From the NCBI GenBank assembly GCA_001769385.1, contig MEPB01000077.1:62001-126000 (forward strand): 64,000 bases of DNA, read 5' to 3'. The position numbers and the translations under genes were made by a program. The DNA comes from Bacteroidetes bacterium RIFCSPLOWO2_12_FULL_35_15 (GTDB lineage: Bacteria; Bacteroidota; Bacteroidia; 2-12-FULL-35-15). This document shows, piece by piece, positions 12,309 to 25,299 of this stretch (position 1 is the first letter of the stretch; each line of letters opens with the position of its first letter). The notes under the pieces are model-generated. The model saw only the letters and a list, made by a program, of their open reading frames with translations, did not search any database and was not told the origin of the DNA.

Positions 12309-15137
12309 TTAGTGTTTAAGAATTGTCACCGATCCAATATAATAATGAAAATTTCTGGACATATCTGAAACCTGAACCTTCCAGACGTAAACATCCACCT
12401 GTGCTATATTGCTCCCTTTATTTACTTTTCCATCCCAACCTTTATAAGGATCAGAAGTGTTAAAACACAAATTCCCCCATCTGTCAAAAATAGATAATTG
12501 ATAGGATTGAGGATCCCATCCTTCTCCTTTTGGAAGAAATATATCATTGTTCTCATTACCATCGGGAGTAAAAGTATTGGGGGCATAAAAAGTAAAACCA
12601 TCATTGATAATAATTTCGTGTACTACAGTATCAATACAACCTTGAGCATCAGTAACAATTAAAGTAACAGGATAAACACCTTCGCCATTATAGGTATGTA
12701 CAGGATCCTGACTGTTTGAAAAAGTAGTATCTCCAAAATTCCAAAACCAGTTATTAGCTCCGATTGAGGATTGATCAGTAAAGTATATATCGGTATTGTA
12801 AATATCAGTTACCGTTAAATTACTTGTAAAATCAGCATTTATTTGAGGAGGATTACTAAGAACAATACATGCAGAATCGCGACATCCACCTGCATCAATA
12901 ACTGTGGCACAATAATTACCTGCACTCAAATTTGTAATCCCGGAACTTGTTTGTCCCGTATTCCATAAAATTGAATACGGAGTGTTACCACCACTAATGG
13001 CTATTGTTGCGGTTCCATTTGTACCTCCAAAACAGTCAATGGGTGTTAAAGAAATGGAAGTAGTAATTAAAGAGGAATTTGCAATACTTGTGTTTATCAT
13101 TATGGTGCAACTATTAGCATCAGCTATTGTAATGGTGTAAGTGCCTTGTGCAAGACCGGTAGCATTTGCAGTGCTTCCACCGAAAGGAGCCCATGAATAA
13201 GTATATGGTGAAGTACCACCTGTTGCAATGATAGAAGCTGTTCCATTATTTTGCCCACAGGTAGATGGTGTATTTGTTATCGTTGCTGCTAAAATTGAAT
13301 TTGGTTGTAAAATAATTGTTGAAGAAGGAACACTGCAACTAAGAGCATCTGTAACAGTAACTGTATATGTGCCGGCACTCAGGCTCGAAGCTGTTGCTGC
13401 TGCTCCACCACTTGGACTCCATGAAAATAAATACGGGGCGGTTCCTCCGGTAGGTGTTACTGTTGCTGTTCCATTGTTTCCATTAAAACAACTTACTGGA
13501 GTACTGATAATAGATGAAGTAATTGCAGCGGGTTGAGCAACAACGGCAGTGGCTGTTGTACTGCATGAGTTTTGATCGGTTACTGTGATCGTATAATTTC
13601 CGGCAGAAAGTGCGGTTGCGGTTGCACTCGATCCTCCTGAAGGAGACCATGAATAGGAATAGGGAGCAGCTCCATTTATCACTGTTGCAGTGGCTGTACC
13701 ATCATTCCCACCAAAACAGGTAACAGACGTAACACTTGTTGTAACACTCAGTGAACCAGCCTGAGTAACGTTTGCAGAATCAATTGCAGAACATCCATTC
13801 AAATCCGAAACTGTTAAAAAATAAGTACCTGCTGAATTTACTGTCGGGGTTAAGGTGGAGCCACCGGAAACTATTCCAGGACCTGTCCAGTTATAAGTTG
13901 TACCGGCAGTACTTGACAAACCGCTTAAAGTAGCATTAGTTACACCACAGGGAATATTTTGATCTAATCCGGCATCAACATTTGGTAAAGCATCTACAGT
14001 AACACTAACGATCGTTCTTAGGCTTTCGCATCCACTTAAAGTTTGAGAAACATAATAATTGATGGTCCCTGCAATAGCTGTGTTTGGTGTTGGAGCAATC
14101 GCAGAACCAGCTCCTCCTGTTGCAGTTGTGTACCAAAGCAAATTACTTCCTGTAGCTGTAAGCATGGATGATGGCTCTCCCTGACAATAGGAAACAGCGT
14201 TTGCAACCGGACTTGAAGCAGAATTAACTGTAACAATTACCGAATCAAGAATTGTATCATTGCAAGTAGTAAGCACTCCTAATGTAATAAGAACAGGCCC
14301 TGATTCTGTTGCTGATGGAGTATATGTTGTGCTTAATGAAACAGGATTTGAAAACACTCCACTACCACCTTGCCAGAATATAGCGCCTGTTGTTCCTGAG
14401 ACGGAACCAAGTAATGAAGCGCTCCCCCCGCAAATGGCACTTCCTGCACCGGCATCAACCGTTAATGGTATGAAAGGAGCCTGACACCCTAAATTTACAT
14501 ACGAAGCCGCACCACTCCATGAAAACTCAACAGCACCGCCATCCTGCCCTCCAGGACTTCCATTTTGCATAATTAAGGATGCTCTGTTGTATGTTACCAC
14601 ATCCGAACAAGCTGCAGGTGGAGAAAAGGACATTGTTAAGGTTCTTGTTCCGGTTCCGAAGTTTGCAAAATGACCGGCTGTATTTCCTGAACATTGAAAA
14701 ATAATATAAAGTGTGTCGCTTAAGTTTGCAAAACTTTGGGCTGAAGGATTAAATGCAGTGCTGGTTACTAATATTACTCTAGCTCCTGCCGGTAAAACTC
14801 CTCCTGCTGGCTCCTTCAGATAGCCGCAGTTAGTGATGGTCGCATTTAATTGAGCTACAGCTAAGGCTGTGCTTGCATTCTGACAGATCCCTAACCATAA
14901 ATTTGTTGTATTGGGCCAGCTAGCTGTTAAATTTGCTGTATTCAAAGCAGTGTTTCCAACAACAAAACGAACCATTTCATTTTGTCCTTCCAGCGAACCA
15001 TCACAACCATCCACCAAAATACTTTCTATTTCAAAACAGCTGGTTGGGGTTTGAGCTTTGACTACAAATGATTGTAAGGAAATAAACAGCACAAAACAGG
15101 TTGCGATTTTTTTGATATGTACTGTTGTTTTATTCAT
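12309..15137 (-). CDS. Large secreted SprB-repeat/PKD protein with CHU_C gliding-motility C-terminal domain
   Basis: 942 residues. Signal peptide (1-28), an N-terminal lamin-tail-like region (LEGQNEMVRFVVGN, about 45-60), Ig-like segments, four SprB-type repeats (about 465-770, each with TCFGGNDGTAT-like starts and SAGNYTITVTD-like ends), a PKD domain (about 795-850, WFWNFGDTTFSNSQDPVHTY) and a CHU_C C-terminal domain (FTPDGNENNDIF, LSIFDRWGN, YVWKV). CHU_C is a T9SS type B signal, so the protein should reach the cell surface through T9SS, possibly as an adhesin. The usual adjacent PorP/SprF gene is absent here. Confidence 0.92.
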   Translation of the reverse strand: MNKTTVHIKKIATCFVLFISLQSFVVKAQTPTSCFEIESILVDGCDGSLEGQNEMVRFVVGNTALNTANLTASWPNTTNLWLGICQNASTALAVAQLNATITNCGYLKEPAGGVLPAGARVILVTSTAFNPSAQSFANLSDTLYIIFQCSGNTAGHFANFGTGTRTLTMSFSPPAACSDVVTYNRASLIMQNGSPGGQDGGAVEFSWSGAASYVNLGCQAPFIPLTVDAGAGSAICGGSASLLGSVSGTTGAIFWQGGSGVFSNPVSLSTTYTPSATESGPVLITLGVLTTCNDTILDSVIVTVNSASSPVANAVSYCQGEPSSMLTATGSNLLWYTTATGGAGSAIAPTPNTAIAGTINYYVSQTLSGCESLRTIVSVTVDALPNVDAGLDQNIPCGVTNATLSGLSSTAGTTYNWTGPGIVSGGSTLTPTVNSAGTYFLTVSDLNGCSAIDSANVTQAGSLSVTTSVTSVTCFGGNDGTATATVINGAAPYSYSWSPSGGSSATATALSAGNYTITVTDQNSCSTTATAVVAQPAAITSSIISTPVSCFNGNNGTATVTPTGGTAPYLFSWSPSGGAAATASSLSAGTYTVTVTDALSCSVPSSTIILQPNSILAATITNTPSTCGQNNGTASIIATGGTSPYTYSWAPFGGSTANATGLAQGTYTITIADANSCTIMINTSIANSSLITTSISLTPIDCFGGTNGTATIAISGGNTPYSILWNTGQTSSGITNLSAGNYCATVIDAGGCRDSACIVLSNPPQINADFTSNLTVTDIYNTDIYFTDQSSIGANNWFWNFGDTTFSNSQDPVHTYNGEGVYPVTLIVTDAQGCIDTVVHEIIINDGFTFYAPNTFTPDGNENNDIFLPKGEGWDPQSYQLSIFDRWGNLCFNTSDPYKGWDGKVNKGSNIAQVDVYVWKVQVSDMSRNFHYYIGSVTILKH

Positions 15138-18396: not shown

Positions 18397-21300
18397 ATGA
18401 AAAAACATTTACTTCTCATTGTATTGGCATTTGCATTTCAGATAATTAAAGCAAATGAAAATGTTCCAAATAATTACACAGTCTCTTTTAATAAAGCATA
18501 TCAGTTGCATCCGGAGATTCCAAAAGGGATTTTAGAAGCGGTTTCGTTTTGTAATACCCACTTTAATCACATTCAACATGCTTCTTCTCAATCTGAAAGT
18601 TGCACAGGAATACCAAATTCTTATGGTGTGATGGGACTTACATTGGATGGGCAAAATTATTTTGCGAATAACCTTATCACAGTATCAACTCTTTCGGGAA
18701 AAACTGTAAACGAAATTATTACAGATCCGGAAAAAAACATTTTGGCTTATGCTGATGCCTATGTAGCTGTAAAAAATTTATTAGCTATTACAGGAAATGA
18801 TATAGAATCTCAAATTCCAATTTTAGTTTATTTAAGTGAATTACCTCAAAAAACTCTTGGACAAAATTTTGCGTCACAAACTCAACTTTATGGTTATTTT
18901 CAATTTTTAACTACGGTTGATTATCAACAGCAATATGGGTTTCCGCATTATACCATTAATTTTGAAAAGATCTTTGGTGCAGAAAATTATGCAATACTCA
19001 GTTCAACCGAAATTACTGTAACGGATGAAAGTGTTTATAATAAAAGCGGACAGCAGTTCCAAAATAAATCTGTTTTATCTACGGAATATGGTCCCGCAAT
19101 CTGGAATCCTACTACTTGCAATTACAGTTCGCGAAGCGGAACAGCAATTTCTGCAATAACTATTCACACGGTACAAGGAACTTATTCCGGGTGTATTTCA
19201 TGGTTCAAGAATTGTTCTGCAAGTGCTTCTACACACTATGTCCTCCGCTCATCTGACGGGCAGGTTACTCAAATGGTTGTGGAAGCGGATAAAGCCTGGC
19301 ATGTGGGTTCCGAAAACCCTTATACCATCGGTTATGAACATGAGGGATATGTGAATGATGCTTCCTGGTACACCAACGCAATGTATGTCAGTTCTGCCAG
19401 TTTATCCAGAGATATCACGCAAAGCGGATACGGAATAAATCCTTTAAGGACCTATTTCGGACCGGGTTGTTCAGGAAGTACAACTCAATGCGGAATAGGA
19501 GCCTGTACAAAAATTAAGGGTCATCAAATGTATCCGAATCAAACACATACTGATCCCGGACCAAATTGGAACTGGGCTTATTATTATTTATTGATCAATA
19601 ATAATCCAACTATTACTACAGTTACAACTGCCACCGGCACATCTACCGACAATGGCGGAAGTACTGCAAACTATACAGATGACCAACGTATATTAACACT
19701 TATTCAACCCACAGGTGCTACATCTGTCACACTTAATTTTACATCCTTCAACCTGGAATTAAATTGGGATTATTTATTAATTTATGATGGAACAACCACA
19801 GCTGCTCCATTGTTAGGAAAATACACAGGCACAACAAATCCGGGAACCATTACATCAAGCGGTGGGTCTTTATTAATAGAGTTTCGTTCTGACTGTGCAA
19901 CTACCGCACCCGGTTGGGTTGCCAACTGGACAAGCAATATTGTGATACCAACATCGCCAGATAATGTTGCTCCAACAACAACAGTAAGCACCCCGAATAC
20001 TTGGGAAACAGCTAACTTCACAGCTGCTTTCACAGATGCTGATAATGCAGGAGGAAGTGGTCTGGAAAAAAGTTATTACCAGGTAATTGATTATAACGGA
20101 ATCGAATGGCGAGCCAATAAAAACAATGGTTTTTTTGCAGATAATTTTGATGCTGCAATTCATCCTGACTGGACCAGCGCAAACGGAAATTGGAGCATTA
20201 ACACTGGCGCCTTATACCAATCAAATGAAGATTCCACTAATACCAACATTTACGCTTCCTTGAACCAAACTTTATCAAACAGATATTTATATAATTTCTA
20301 TGGAAAAATTGATGGAGCAGGAACAAATAAACGAGCAGGATTTCATTTCTTTTGTGATAATGCTTCTCAATCAAATCGTGGAAACTCTTATTTTGTATGG
20401 TTCAGAGTAGATAATGCAAAATTACAAATTTACAAAGTGGTGAATGATGTATTTGGTTCACCGGTAGTAGATACAGCATTTACAACCCTTGCCGGACAAT
20501 GGTATGATTATAAAGTTATTTACGATCGCATCACCGGAAAAATTTCCATTTATAGAGACAATTCATTTGTTACAAGCTGGAAAGATCCATCACCCTACGC
20601 TACTGGAAATGCAATTTCCTTCCGAAGCGGAAATGCAAATTTCGCGATCAATGAATTAAAAGTATATCGTTCCCGTTTAGCCTCCGCTTCCATATCTGTT
20701 GGTGCTGCAGCAACGAATGATATTCGTTATCAGAATCCGAATCCGACCACTTCTTCCGCTAAAATAAAATCCATCTGCGTGGACTCAGCAAGAAATCTTT
20801 CTGCCATATTTTATAAAGATCTGAACATTGACTGGACAGTTCCAAGCACTGTGGATACCATCAATGATGGCACAGGAGCAGATATCATATTTACAAATTC
20901 TGCAACTGATCTGTCGGCAAACTGGAGTAATGCTGCTGATACCAACTCTGCAATTGATCGTTATTGGTATGCAATAGGAACAAGTCCGGGAGCAACAAAT
21001 ATCAAAACATGGACGGATAATTGGTTCAACAGAAGTGTAACTGCAACAGGTTTAAGTTTAGTGAACGGACAAATTTATTATTTCAGCGTTAAGTCTGAAG
21101 ATGGCGCAGGATTACTATCAACAGTATTTACCAGCAACGGGCAAACAGTTCAATTAAGTTTAGGAATAACCGACCAAGATGGATTGAATACCATTTCGGT
21201 TTCACCAAATCCTTTTTCAAACACTACCAGCCTAACTTATAATTTAACTGAAAATTCGAAAATTACCATTTCACTATTTGATGTATTAGGGAAGGAAATT

Positions 21301-21444
21301 ATTTTATATAACAACTCCAATCAGACATCCGGAAAGCATGAATTGACAATCAATTCAAATGAATTGAAAATTGCAAAAGGAATGTATTTTGTGAAGATCA
21401 AAACCGATAAAAATTTAAAAACCCTGAAAGTGGTTTTGAAATAA
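18397..21444 (+). CDS. T9SS-secreted N-acetylmuramoyl-L-alanine amidase with CUB and lectin-like tail
   Basis: 1015 residues. Signal peptide (1-19). Residues 36-180 resemble a helical lysozyme/transglycosylase-like domain (HPEIPKGILEAVSFCNTHFN, YGVMGLTLDG). Amidase_2 domain at about 250-395: probable zinc ligands His257 (ITIHTVQG), His384 and Asp386 (HTDPGPNWNW), with conserved WHVG and IGYEHEG. A CUB-like domain (about 405-515), a laminin-G/lectin-like module (about 560-770), a fibronectin-like module and a T9SS type A sorting domain follow (SPNPFSNTTSLTYN to GMYFVKIKT). It would cut peptidoglycan stem peptides outside the cell. The tail closely matches the GH18 protein two genes on. Confidence 0.92.
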   Translation: MKKHLLLIVLAFAFQIIKANENVPNNYTVSFNKAYQLHPEIPKGILEAVSFCNTHFNHIQHASSQSESCTGIPNSYGVMGLTLDGQNYFANNLITVSTLSGKTVNEIITDPEKNILAYADAYVAVKNLLAITGNDIESQIPILVYLSELPQKTLGQNFASQTQLYGYFQFLTTVDYQQQYGFPHYTINFEKIFGAENYAILSSTEITVTDESVYNKSGQQFQNKSVLSTEYGPAIWNPTTCNYSSRSGTAISAITIHTVQGTYSGCISWFKNCSASASTHYVLRSSDGQVTQMVVEADKAWHVGSENPYTIGYEHEGYVNDASWYTNAMYVSSASLSRDITQSGYGINPLRTYFGPGCSGSTTQCGIGACTKIKGHQMYPNQTHTDPGPNWNWAYYYLLINNNPTITTVTTATGTSTDNGGSTANYTDDQRILTLIQPTGATSVTLNFTSFNLELNWDYLLIYDGTTTAAPLLGKYTGTTNPGTITSSGGSLLIEFRSDCATTAPGWVANWTSNIVIPTSPDNVAPTTTVSTPNTWETANFTAAFTDADNAGGSGLEKSYYQVIDYNGIEWRANKNNGFFADNFDAAIHPDWTSANGNWSINTGALYQSNEDSTNTNIYASLNQTLSNRYLYNFYGKIDGAGTNKRAGFHFFCDNASQSNRGNSYFVWFRVDNAKLQIYKVVNDVFGSPVVDTAFTTLAGQWYDYKVIYDRITGKISIYRDNSFVTSWKDPSPYATGNAISFRSGNANFAINELKVYRSRLASASISVGAAATNDIRYQNPNPTTSSAKIKSICVDSARNLSAIFYKDLNIDWTVPSTVDTINDGTGADIIFTNSATDLSANWSNAADTNSAIDRYWYAIGTSPGATNIKTWTDNWFNRSVTATGLSLVNGQIYYFSVKSEDGAGLLSTVFTSNGQTVQLSLGITDQDGLNTISVSPNPFSNTTSLTYNLTENSKITISLFDVLGKEIILYNNSNQTSGKHELTINSNELKIAKGMYFVKIKTDKNLKTLKVVLK

Positions 21445-21462
21445 TTTACTCGATTCGAATAC

Positions 21463-21491
21463 CCCTGTCAGGGTTTGAAACCCTGACAGGG
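21463..21491. repeat. Perfect palindrome, GTTT-G-AAAC core
   Basis: CCCTGTCAGGGTTT (21463-21476), a single G, then AAACCCTGACAGGG (21478-21491): 14-bp perfect arms with a 1-nt centre. It lies between the amidase and the next T9SS gene. The centre GTTT-N-AAAC is shared with the palindrome at 26802-26834. Confidence 0.75.
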
Positions 21492-21516
21492 ATAAAATTC
21501 AACTAAATATTCTCCA

Positions 21517-22263
21517 ATGAATGTCAAGAAGATTTTTTTCACAACGATTTTCACTATGCTACTTGCATTTATGGCAAATGGCACAACCTGGACAACTATT
21601 TCAAATGGTTTTTGGAATGACCCTGCAACATGGTCAACAGGTGTAGTCCCGCCACTTTCAAGTGCTGATACTTTTAATATAAAATTTCCGGTTGCCATCC
21701 AAAATAATTTGACTTTCAACACAGGAGCTTTCTTATATATTGACAGTACCGGAGGTATATGCGGACATTACAAGGTCACTGTAAAATCAGGCGCAAAACT
21801 ATCAAAATTCGGGATACTTGAATTGGATACTCTTTCTATTCCCGGAGGAATTGTTACTTGTCAGGCTCCCGGACAGGTCATCTTAACTTGTTATGGAATT
21901 ATTAGTAACGGAGGCTCCTTTTCTGTGAATGGTTGTTCACTTGCTGTTGGCCCTTGGTTTAATTGTCTTCAGCCTGCCTATGCATTTGTTTTAGGAATAG
22001 ATGAAATGAGCACGACCAATTCAGTTGTTCTATACCCCAACCCTAACAATGGTAAATTCACTTTAACATATCAATTATCAAGTCCGAAAGCAGAATTAAA
22101 AATAATAAATCTTTTAGGCGAAAATATTTACAGTCAATATCTTTATGGCACAGGGGGGTCGGTAGAAATTACAATTTCAGAATTTAGAAAAGGCATTTAT
22201 TTTTGGGAAATAATTACCGAAGAAGGAATTACAAAAAAAGGAAAAATTGAAGTATTAAAATAA
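21517..22263 (+). CDS. T9SS-secreted beta-rich protein
   Basis: 248 residues: signal peptide (1-22), a G8-like or autotransporter-like start (TTISNGFWNDPATWSTGVVP) with short beta repeats to about residue 155, and a T9SS type A sorting domain (VLYPNPNNGKFTLTYQLSS, LKIINLLGENIY, KGIYFWEI). The 'W-x-N-PATW' opening is frequent in Bacteroidota surface proteins. It lies between two hydrolases on the same strand, 6 nt before the GH18 gene, suggesting a common transcript. No catalytic residues seen. Confidence 0.85.
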   Translation: MNVKKIFFTTIFTMLLAFMANGTTWTTISNGFWNDPATWSTGVVPPLSSADTFNIKFPVAIQNNLTFNTGAFLYIDSTGGICGHYKVTVKSGAKLSKFGILELDTLSIPGGIVTCQAPGQVILTCYGIISNGGSFSVNGCSLAVGPWFNCLQPAYAFVLGIDEMSTTNSVVLYPNPNNGKFTLTYQLSSPKAELKIINLLGENIYSQYLYGTGGSVEITISEFRKGIYFWEIITEEGITKKGKIEVLK

Positions 22264-22269
22264 TTAACA

Positions 22270-25200
22270 ATGAAAAAAACACTACTCCTGATTTTTACAT
22301 TTGCAACACAAATTTGTTTTGCACAAAACAAAAATGAAATTCACAAATCCATTCACCAGGAAGAATTAGAAAAATATGCGCAGTATAATTTAAGCACCGA
22401 TGCGCAATGGGACAGTTTACGTGCCGTTCAAACAGATTTACCAAAAAGTGTACGCCCTGTTGAAAGTGAACTTAAAAGTGGCTCACGTGCCTGCAACCTG
22501 AACAAACGTGTGTATGGCTGGCATCCATACTGGAGCAATGGCTTACAAACAAATTACGACTGGAACGGATTAACGGACCTGTGTTATTTTGCTTATGAAG
22601 TAAATTCAGCAACAGGTGCGGCATCCAACACCCACAGTTGGTCAACAGCTGCAGTTGTAACAGCAGCTCAAACAAACGGAGTGAATGTTACTTTGTGTGC
22701 CACATTATTCAGCGGACATACTACATTTTTTGCAAGTTCCACCTCACAACAAACCCTTATTACCAATTTAATAAATGCCGTTCAACAACGAAATGCACAT
22801 GGTGTAAATATTGATTTCGAAGGAATGGGATCTTCGCACAAAGCAAGTTTTACAGCCTTTATGATCGATCTTTGTAATCAAATGCATGCAGCAATTCCCG
22901 GTTCAGAAATAAGCATTGCTTTGTATTCAGTGGATTGGAGCGGAGTGTTTGATATGCCGGCTTTAAATCCTTATGTTGATCTATTTGTAATCATGGGTTA
23001 CGATTATTATTACAGTGGAAGTACCACAGCCGGACCAGAAGACCCCTTGTATAATTTCCAAACTTCTTACAATTACACCCTCACAAAATCAATTACATAC
23101 TATCTGAACAAAGGCACCTCCAGATCAAAATTATTATTGGGCCTGCCCTATTATGGCCGGGAATGGGCCACTACAGCATCTACTGCGCCAAGCAGCACAA
23201 CAGGTGGCGGAACAAATACAGTTATATATAATACGATGCGCAATAATACATCCGGCAATTACAGCAACCGCCAATGGGATGTGAACAGTTCTTCGAGTTG
23301 GTATTTATCTCAACGTTCAGGTGTCTGGTGGCAGGCATTTGTTGATGATGCGTATTCGATGGGTAAACGTTTCGATATGGTTAATCAATTTGGAATTGGA
23401 GGCATCGGCATCTGGGCATTAGGGTATGATAACGGCTATAGCGACTTCTGGAACCTGATACAAAATAAATTCACCGATTGCGCAACTGTTCCGTGTACAG
23501 ATACTATTTATGACATGGGTGGGCCTAACAGAGATTATTATGCAAATGAAAATTACACATACACCATTGCACCAACAGGATCAACTGGTGTAACATTAAA
23601 TTTTTCTGCATTCACAACTGAATTAAATTACGATACACTCTGGATCTATAATGGTGCAAGTACCGCATCACCATTGATTGGCTTTTACACAGGAACTAAT
23701 AGTCCCGGCACAGTTAGTTCCACTAACGGTGCATTAACCATTCGATTCAAATCCGATATTGCAACACAAGCAAGTGGCTTTAAAGCAATATGGAATTGCA
23801 GCCTGGCAGCTATTGATGTTGTAAATCCTACAACGCAAGTTACTGCACCTACAAACTGGGTAACGCAAAATTTCACCGGTACTTTTACTGATGCTGATAA
23901 TGCAGGCGGTTCAGGTATAGAAAAAAGTTTTTATCAAGTACTTGACTACAATGGTACTGAATGGAGAGCAAATAACGGCAATGGATTTTTCAGTGATAAT
24001 TTCGATCTGGTCCTTCATCCCGACTGGACCATTGCAAATGGAACATGGGCCATCAATGGGGGGTATTTAGAGCAAAGTGATCAGGCAACAACAACTACTA
24101 ATACAAACATATATGCGCCACTTACTCAAAATTTATCGAACAGATATTTATATAACTGGCAAGGAAAAATTGGTGGTACCGGAACAAACAGACGTGCAGG
24201 ATTTCATTTTTTCTGTGATGATGCGACACAATCAAATCGGGGAAACTCTTATTTTGTATGGTTCAGAGTAGATCAGAGTGTTTGTGAATTTTATAAAGTA
24301 ACAGCCAACACTTTTTCTTTAATGAGCTCAGTTCCGATGACAGTAGCCCTAAACACATGGTATGATTATAAAGTTTCATATGATCGTATTTCAGGAAAAA
24401 TAGATGTGTATCAAAATAATATTTTTGCAGGAAGCTGGACAGATCCAACACCATTGTCGAACGGAAATGCAATCTCTTTCCGCAGCGGAAATTGTAATTA
24501 TATGGTGAATGACCTGAAAGTGTATCGTTCACGCTTACAATCTGTTACAGTTAGTGTTGGCGCTGCTTCCACAAATGATGTCCGTTATCAGAATCCCAAT
24601 CCTACTACTCCATCGTGCAGAATAAAATCAATTACAAAAGATGTGACAGGAAATTTATCGACTGTTGCTTTTCAGGATGTAAATGTTGACTGGACAATCC
24701 CATCAAGTGCTTCGGTGGTTGATGGAACCACTACAGATATTGACACTACCTATTCCTTAACACAATTATCTGCGAACTGGACAATTTGCGCAGATACAAA
24801 TTCTGATGTTGTGAATTACTGGTATGCCATTGGAACCACAGCAGGCGCAACAGATATTGTGAATTGGACCAATAATAATCTAAATACCGCAGTTACAAAT
24901 ACCGGATTAACATTAACATCCGGACAACTTTATTACTTCAGTATTAAATCAGAAGATGGAGCAGGATTATTATCAACGATAACAACCAGCGATGGACAAT
25001 TGGCATTATTGGCAACAGGAATTAATGAAGTGGCGAATGATCTTAATCTGATCGCTTTCCCAAATCCATTCACAGAAAATACTACGATAGAATATAATTT
25101 ACAAACAAACAGTACAATTGAAATTTCGCTTATTGATATCCTTGGAAAAGAAATCATGATAACACCTAAACAAAACCAACAAAGCGGAAAACATCAATTA

Positions 25201-25299
25201 GTGATCAATAAATATGATTTGAATCTTTCAAATGGAATTTACTTTTTGAAAGTTAAAACAGACAAAAAAGAAATAATTACAAAATTGATCCTGCAATAA
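22270..25299 (+). CDS. T9SS-secreted GH18 glycoside hydrolase with the same tail as the amidase
   Basis: 1009 residues. Signal peptide (1-19). GH18 barrel at about 78-400: VYGWHPYWSNG, the catalytic strand HGVNIDFEG with the acid Glu184 (the usual first Asp of DxxDxDxE is Asn here), VIMGYDYYY, LLGLPYYGREW and GIGIWALGYDNG. GH18 enzymes cut chitin or related GlcNAc polymers, and spore-wall types cut peptidoglycan. CUB-like (about 408-510), lectin-like, fibronectin-like and T9SS type A domains follow (FPNPFTENTTIEYNLQ, NGIYFLKVKT). From the CUB domain onward it aligns with the 18397-21444 protein nearly end to end. Confidence 0.93.
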   Translation: MKKTLLLIFTFATQICFAQNKNEIHKSIHQEELEKYAQYNLSTDAQWDSLRAVQTDLPKSVRPVESELKSGSRACNLNKRVYGWHPYWSNGLQTNYDWNGLTDLCYFAYEVNSATGAASNTHSWSTAAVVTAAQTNGVNVTLCATLFSGHTTFFASSTSQQTLITNLINAVQQRNAHGVNIDFEGMGSSHKASFTAFMIDLCNQMHAAIPGSEISIALYSVDWSGVFDMPALNPYVDLFVIMGYDYYYSGSTTAGPEDPLYNFQTSYNYTLTKSITYYLNKGTSRSKLLLGLPYYGREWATTASTAPSSTTGGGTNTVIYNTMRNNTSGNYSNRQWDVNSSSSWYLSQRSGVWWQAFVDDAYSMGKRFDMVNQFGIGGIGIWALGYDNGYSDFWNLIQNKFTDCATVPCTDTIYDMGGPNRDYYANENYTYTIAPTGSTGVTLNFSAFTTELNYDTLWIYNGASTASPLIGFYTGTNSPGTVSSTNGALTIRFKSDIATQASGFKAIWNCSLAAIDVVNPTTQVTAPTNWVTQNFTGTFTDADNAGGSGIEKSFYQVLDYNGTEWRANNGNGFFSDNFDLVLHPDWTIANGTWAINGGYLEQSDQATTTTNTNIYAPLTQNLSNRYLYNWQGKIGGTGTNRRAGFHFFCDDATQSNRGNSYFVWFRVDQSVCEFYKVTANTFSLMSSVPMTVALNTWYDYKVSYDRISGKIDVYQNNIFAGSWTDPTPLSNGNAISFRSGNCNYMVNDLKVYRSRLQSVTVSVGAASTNDVRYQNPNPTTPSCRIKSITKDVTGNLSTVAFQDVNVDWTIPSSASVVDGTTTDIDTTYSLTQLSANWTICADTNSDVVNYWYAIGTTAGATDIVNWTNNNLNTAVTNTGLTLTSGQLYYFSIKSEDGAGLLSTITTSDGQLALLATGINEVANDLNLIAFPNPFTENTTIEYNLQTNSTIEISLIDILGKEIMITPKQNQQSGKHQLVINKYDLNLSNGIYFLKVKTDKKEIITKLILQ

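Follow-up and report, generated by a model that had tools for sequence, protein, structure and literature searches.

SPOR domains bind peptide-free glycan and direct enzymes to glycan that has been bared (PMC6895207), and the same binding domain is reused on amidases and on glycan-cutting enzymes of a cell's own septal wall. CBM66, known from the levanase SacC of B. subtilis and from a Cohnella xanthanase, is a ConA-like lectin that is accessory to hydrolases, and its two characterised members bind terminal sugars of polysaccharides, one the fructose at fructan ends and the other, as the authors of that work inferred, the xanthan end that carries pyruvylated mannose (PMC11002231). This study describes a module that resembles both, carried by two enzymes encoded in a 64,000-nucleotide stretch of Bacteroidetes bacterium RIFCSPLOWO2_12_FULL_35_15 (contig MEPB01000077.1, positions 62,001 to 126,000; hereafter the window), a predicted N-acetylmuramoyl-L-alanine amidase and a predicted glycoside hydrolase of family GH18, both with signals for export by the type IX secretion system (T9SS). 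It is a new, unnamed module of the targeting type on known enzyme families, and the observation is real and well above chance.

Like CBM66, the module contains a ConA-like lectin accessory to hydrolases (Z about 21, root-mean-square deviation (rmsd) about 2). It differs in sequence (16% identity), in the immunoglobulin (Ig)-like halves that accompany the lectin, and in its heads, which are wall hydrolases whereas those of CBM66 are fructan, xanthan and pectin enzymes. The likeness to SPOR domains is an analogy of logic only, as fold and compartment are different, SPOR acting on the own septal wall and the module being T9SS-exported, and the Pfam scan found no SPOR match in either enzyme. The catalytic parts are familiar. 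The amidase has the catalytic domain of the AmpD/Amidase_2 amidases, with matching metal and catalytic positions, but adds an N-terminal domain, a CUB, the lectin module and T9SS export. The catalytic domain of the GH18 enzyme can be aligned both to YdhD/SleL-type spore wall enzymes and to chitinases, from which the enzyme differs by its T9SS export and lectin tail. The features of the locus are as follows.

18397..21444, + strand: predicted T9SS-exported N-acetylmuramoyl-L-alanine amidase, 1015 aa (open reading frame (ORF), Pfam and TIGR04183), with orthologues in 16 further genomes
18460..19071, + strand: N-terminal domain of the amidase, aa 22-225, without a Pfam family, kept in nearly all module-bearing amidases
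19141..19563, + strand: Amidase_2 catalytic domain, aa 249-389 (Pfam, E 1.4e-20)
19624..19926, + strand: CUB of the amidase, aa 410-510 (Pfam, E 6.1e-13)
19969..21111, + strand: amidase copy of the shared module, aa 525-905, with a CBM66-like lectin between two Ig-like halves and an FN3-like part after them
20134..20679, + strand: CBM66-like lectin fold inside the amidase module, model residues 56-237 (fold comparison)
21202..21435, + strand: T9SS type A C-terminal sorting domain of the amidase, Por_Secre_tail aa 936-1013 (TIGR04183)
21517..22263, + strand: small T9SS cargo of 248 aa between both enzymes (ORF and Pfam)
22270..25299, + strand: predicted T9SS-exported GH18 glycoside hydrolase, 1009 aa (ORF, Pfam and TIGR04183)
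22552..23430, + strand: GH18 catalytic domain, aa 95-387 (Pfam Glyco_hydro_18; motif HGVNIDFEG)
23506..23787, + strand: CUB of the GH18 enzyme, aa 413-506 (Pfam, E 3.4e-13)
23827..24966, + strand: GH18 copy of the shared module, aa 520-899, 63% identical to the amidase copy
25057..25290, + strand: T9SS type A C-terminal sorting domain of the GH18 enzyme, Por_Secre_tail aa 930-1007 (TIGR04183)

An initial annotation of the window, made from the sequence alone, had proposed that both enzymes carry the same modules in the same order with clear residue identity. This was confirmed: Pfam recognises a CUB and a Por_Secre_tail in both, and when aligned the tails are 56% identical over 623 aa (670 bits), while the heads upstream are unrelated. 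By segment, identity is 47% in the CUB, 70% in the first Ig half, 64% in the lectin, 60% in the second Ig half, 61% in the FN3-like part and 50% in the sorting domain, and it peaks in the middle module rather than in the T9SS-wide sorting signal. It is far above the shared T9SS background, because the middle module occurs at only 4 places in the genome (E<=1), whereas the PF18962 sorting domain has 150 matches or more (of 296 candidates, 150 were scored).

The lectin of the 16 amidase orthologues has a mean identity to the window sequence of 81%, compared with 76% for Amidase_2, 65% for the N-terminal domain and 56% for the sorting domain. In 12 GH18 orthologues the GH18 domain is 80%, the lectin 76% and the sorting domain 47% identical to the window. 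Constraint on the lectin is therefore about the same as that on the catalytic domain, and since lectin conservation matches or exceeds that of Amidase_2 while the sorting domain falls to 56%, selection acts on the lectin itself and not on export alone. The best-conserved unit of the tail is the 381-residue module, from which the CUB is separable. The earlier idea of a tail of about 600 residues as one common unit holds for the Ig/lectin/FN3 module and not for the whole tail, in which the CUB comes and goes and the sorting domain changes fastest from one orthologue to the next.

The module (aa 525-905 of the amidase) has no Pfam match, and the searches of this analysis returned no named family that covers the whole of it. 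An alignment of 36 module sequences (63% mean column identity), in which the motif NRGNSYF is nearly invariant, was given to AlphaFold and yielded a model with a predicted local distance difference test score (pLDDT) of 88. Residues 56-237 of this model superpose on 4azz, the CBM66 of B. subtilis levanase, with Z 20.9 and rmsd 2.0 over 161 of 165 residues, and Foldseek matched the model to 4b1m with E 6.2e-10; families missing from the fold-comparison rows were given no weight. The predicted structure has the CBM66 lectin fold, and sequence identity to the solved members is 16%. The lectin appears to be inserted in an Ig-like domain, as its flanks read as two halves with the pattern 'YYQV...W ... 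IKSIVxDxAGN', a reading based on sequence pattern and strand order rather than on inspected coordinates. An FN3-like part follows the second Ig half. The lectin-like and fibronectin-like parts that the initial annotation had seen in the tail were thereby borne out, the former by structure prediction and fold comparison and the latter by weak Pfam matches to FN3 in relatives. The modelled fold is of a kind that binds carbohydrate, but a fold match by itself names no ligand.

Module-only searches of relatives, of 84,980 species and of a class-wide sample gave 177 distinct proteins; one contig profile scan was limited to the best 80 matches of a query led by the window amidase. All 172 proteins with a recognisable head carry a hydrolase of walls or amino-sugar polymers or a C39-like peptidase, and the other 5 are fragments. 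The heads are Amidase_2 (102), GH18 (49), C39-like (7), GH75 (6), SpoIID (2) and M23 (2), with one each of Amidase_3, GH25, GHL10 and NlpC/P60-like, the last (L046) assigned by motif only. A further 13 proteins, most of them picked because they matched the module weakly, also proved to have amidase or GH18 heads. The suggestion that the tail would be found on other catalytic heads in related genomes was thus upheld, with ten unrelated head types, and the pattern is both broader and more specific than the window sequence alone could reveal. A CUB is present on 49/49 GH18 heads and 93/102 Amidase_2 heads and is absent from the remaining eight types, so it does not belong to the general module. 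In the class-wide sample the module was found in 114 of 395 genomes and 48 of 196 genera. A phylum-wide sample gave 1 of 395, a figure not used as a frequency, as the rows shown are mostly near-complete genomes of other families; the sharp gap between phylum and class is a side observation, and the module is possibly rare in well-sequenced cultured lineages. One module gene (L292, G600:C1:3719795-3720580) has an in-frame TAG at its second module copy, either a sequencing error or decay. No description of the module was found in the open-licence literature on T9SS with peptidoglycan hydrolases, muralytic enzymes or necromass.

The choice of heads also bears on the idea that the lectin binds an exopolysaccharide or biofilm matrix, own or foreign, and places wall enzymes there. 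CBM66 relatives do bind levan or xanthan ends (PMC11002231). However, head choice tracks wall chemistry and none of the 172 heads is a levanase, a pectinase or another enzyme of matrix polymers, which makes a matrix target very improbable.

The genome of the window has four module genes, which are the amidase, the GH18 enzyme, L064 (752 aa) and L065 (1200 aa). L065 has Peptidase_C39_2 and Golvesin_C domains. The head of L064 (L064:4947-5654) falls under the Pfam GH75 cut-off and AlphaFold modelled it with a pLDDT of only 29, but a profile search against PDB sequences found the GH75 chitosanase V-Csn with E 2.1e-51, and the active-site acidic residues are kept. L064 resembles V-Csn in its head and differs from it in also having the lectin module and a sorting domain for T9SS; it represents a divergent GH75 group, kin to a viral chitosanase, fused to T9SS parts.

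The Amidase_2 head has its His, Glu, Gly-His and Asp-Pro positions invariant over 24 sequences, matching AmpD, and by family match and metal-binding and catalytic residues it is a predicted amidase of this family. Its N-terminal domain looked by eye like an SLT lytic transglycosylase, but a profile comparison gave no match and this candidate was rejected, although the comparison was weak (4 reference sequences, one of them on the wrong strand). In the GH18 motif HGVNIDFEG the Asp and Glu of the catalytic Asp-x-Glu end are invariant in 18 sequences. The full chitinase-subgroup motif DxxDxDxE is not present, since HGVNIDFE is without the first two Asp: the window has His at the first position, where relatives have His, Lys, Asn or Asp, and all of the sequences have Asn at the second. 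The spore-related YdhD also has the motif without these two residues.

These features weigh on a reading in which the locus is a chitin or chitosan kit, its tail targeting the amino-sugar walls of fungi or animals with GH18 and GH75 as the main activities. The best PDB matches of the GH18 head do include chitinases, and the GH75 head is near V-Csn. On the other hand, the GH18 enzyme at 22270-25299 is the only GH18 gene of the genome, its motif is altered as in YdhD, and 102 of the 172 heads are Amidase_2, with M23, SpoIID, GH25 and Amidase_3 also acting on peptidoglycan. We consider a chitin kit quite unlikely. The earlier mention of chitin as a substrate of the GH18 head needs correction: chitin may still be cut, but this is the genome's sole GH18 gene.

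Both enzymes have sorting domains above the curated cut-off of TIGR04183 / PF18962, and SprA of the T9SS translocon is encoded in the genome (2614 bits, over the family cut-off). The at least 150 type A sorting-domain matches imply a very large T9SS cargo set in this genome as a whole. Also in the window, at 12309-15137 (- strand), is a protein of 942 aa in which, as judged by eye, SprB-like segments are repeated and the end is of the CHU_C type; it is likely a gliding or adhesion-type T9SS protein. Type A cargo is sent outside the outer membrane and is often fixed there (PMC11205867). The enzymes should therefore meet foreign or dead walls rather than their own periplasmic wall, which is an unlikely target because T9SS exports past the own periplasmic peptidoglycan. 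Own-wall remodelling for growth or division of the producing cell would find some encouragement in the heads, as amidases, SpoIID, M23 and GHL10/DigH-type enzymes serve in division or sporulation in other settings (DigH: PMC12288456). It is nevertheless hardly tenable, as type A sorting takes the proteins away from the periplasm and many same-genus relatives do without the genes, and the part of the initial annotation that saw a kit for breaking the cell's own walls is best dropped.

The amidase and GH18 genes follow each other on the same strand at 17 loci from several families (including G455, G485, G637, G656 and L096). At most of these loci the gap ranges from a 4-bp overlap to 156 bp (a 4-bp overlap or 12-156 bp at orthologous loci); at two loci the GH18 start is called downstream, so that the gap was not judged there. 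In the window the gaps flanking the small cargo are 72 bp and 6 bp, which would fit a single transcript. The cargo (21517-22263) is missing at orthologous loci with clear gene ends, and among the loci seen it is specific to this genome. It was therefore rejected as a part of the system, contrary to the initial annotation, which had counted it in the surface kit. Other arrangements also occur, such as tandem amidase, M23 and SpoIID genes in G002 (L037:3556-15179), whose modules are alike with 80-92% aa identity in the lectin, and tandem C39 and GH75 module genes in G027 and G022.

Comparison of the sequences indicates that the module is exchanged between heads. A tree of 175 modules requires at least 39 changes of head type, where 10 would suffice. 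In the module tree each copy of the window clusters with the same-head copy of a congener, G024 (Shimodaira-Hasegawa-like approximate likelihood ratio test (SH-aLRT) 97 and 98), and the pair was therefore inherited as such within the genus. The amidase and GH18 modules that occur together in a genome are, in four cases (G042, G485, G486 and G637), closer to each other than to same-head modules of the other genomes compared. Fusions such as GH18/SpoIID (G013) and C39/GH75 (G022, G027) show a sharp edge, with about 25% identity in the 130 residues upstream and 62-85% inside the module. The clearest case is G690, in which the amidase contig and the GH18 contig both end inside the module; their last 99 bp, from the module edge, are identical, and identity upstream is about a third. 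Two further contigs begin with an identical 99-bp stretch near the module end and then diverge (contigs L299, L300, L301 and L302 in all). These ends are a trace left by the assembler, from which we infer an identical inner stretch in both genes and thus a recent conversion between them, the interior not having been recovered. This pattern suggests that, although the heads differ, the binding part is held uniform by conversion.

Such local spread would also be seen if the module were a generic surface spacer, keeping large T9SS cargo folded or displayed without any wall ligand and multiplied by duplication among neighbouring wall genes. The tandem arrays and the conversion are consistent with this, as is the position of the module, which always lies between head and sorting region. 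However, a generic spacer is difficult to reconcile with just four module genes, all with wall-type heads, against the 150 or more sorting-domain matches, or with a lectin as conserved as the catalytic domain. In addition, GH25, Amidase_3 and GHL10 genes carry the module singly, the retrieved stretch containing no other module gene. A spacer is thus unlikely, though it deserves some weight.

We consider it probable that the module can be swapped between hydrolases and serves, outside the cell, to target them to the walls of foreign or dead cells. A CBM66-like lectin in an Ig-like domain, with an FN3-like spacer, would be fused to whichever wall-cutting head Bacteroidia export by T9SS; the lectin would hold the enzyme on the wall glycan of other or dead cells and the head would cut one type of bond. 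At the window locus, stem peptides would be removed by the amidase, after which the GH18 enzyme would cut the bared glycan, both enzymes being displayed or released by T9SS outside the own outer membrane. Several observations weigh against this. The sugars bound by CBM66-like folds vary, and there are ConA-like domains that bind no sugar at all. True chitinases are among the closest solved relatives of the GH18 head. Targets other than peptidoglycan are also conceivable, as GH75 is a family of chitosanases and the C39-like heads could be proteases of an ordinary kind. The class-wide catalogue leans towards amidase and GH18 heads, and 13 of 36 same-genus genomes had no module match, some of the 13 being incomplete.

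The analogy with SPOR domains suggests that a lectin found on such diverse heads may bind wall glycan. GHL10 is a family that we take to include E. coli DigH. DigH is a hydrolase of bared glycan (PMC12288456). Bared glycan is a product of amidases and is cut by SpoIID, DigH-type and perhaps some GH18 enzymes. By the same analogy, removal of peptides would come before glycan cutting at the window locus.

The data presented in this study make the module a search handle for new exported wall hydrolases in uncultured Bacteroidia, many lineages of which carry it on wall-cutting enzymes, and it has already led to GH25, Amidase_3, DigH-like GHL10, GH75 and NlpC/P60-like heads. They also make testable the question of whether one sugar-binding domain directs ten chemistries to the same polymer. 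Conversion of the type seen in G690, in which the binding part is uniform and the heads differ, is unusual to see so cleanly. More tentatively, the lectin-in-Ig module may be a general exported counterpart of SPOR/LysM targeting, recognising wall glycan, perhaps where it is free of peptide or at its chain ends, whichever enzyme it is joined to, and kept uniform among the different enzymes of a genome by gene conversion, by which uncultured Bacteroidia could dismantle walls outside the cell in a modular manner.

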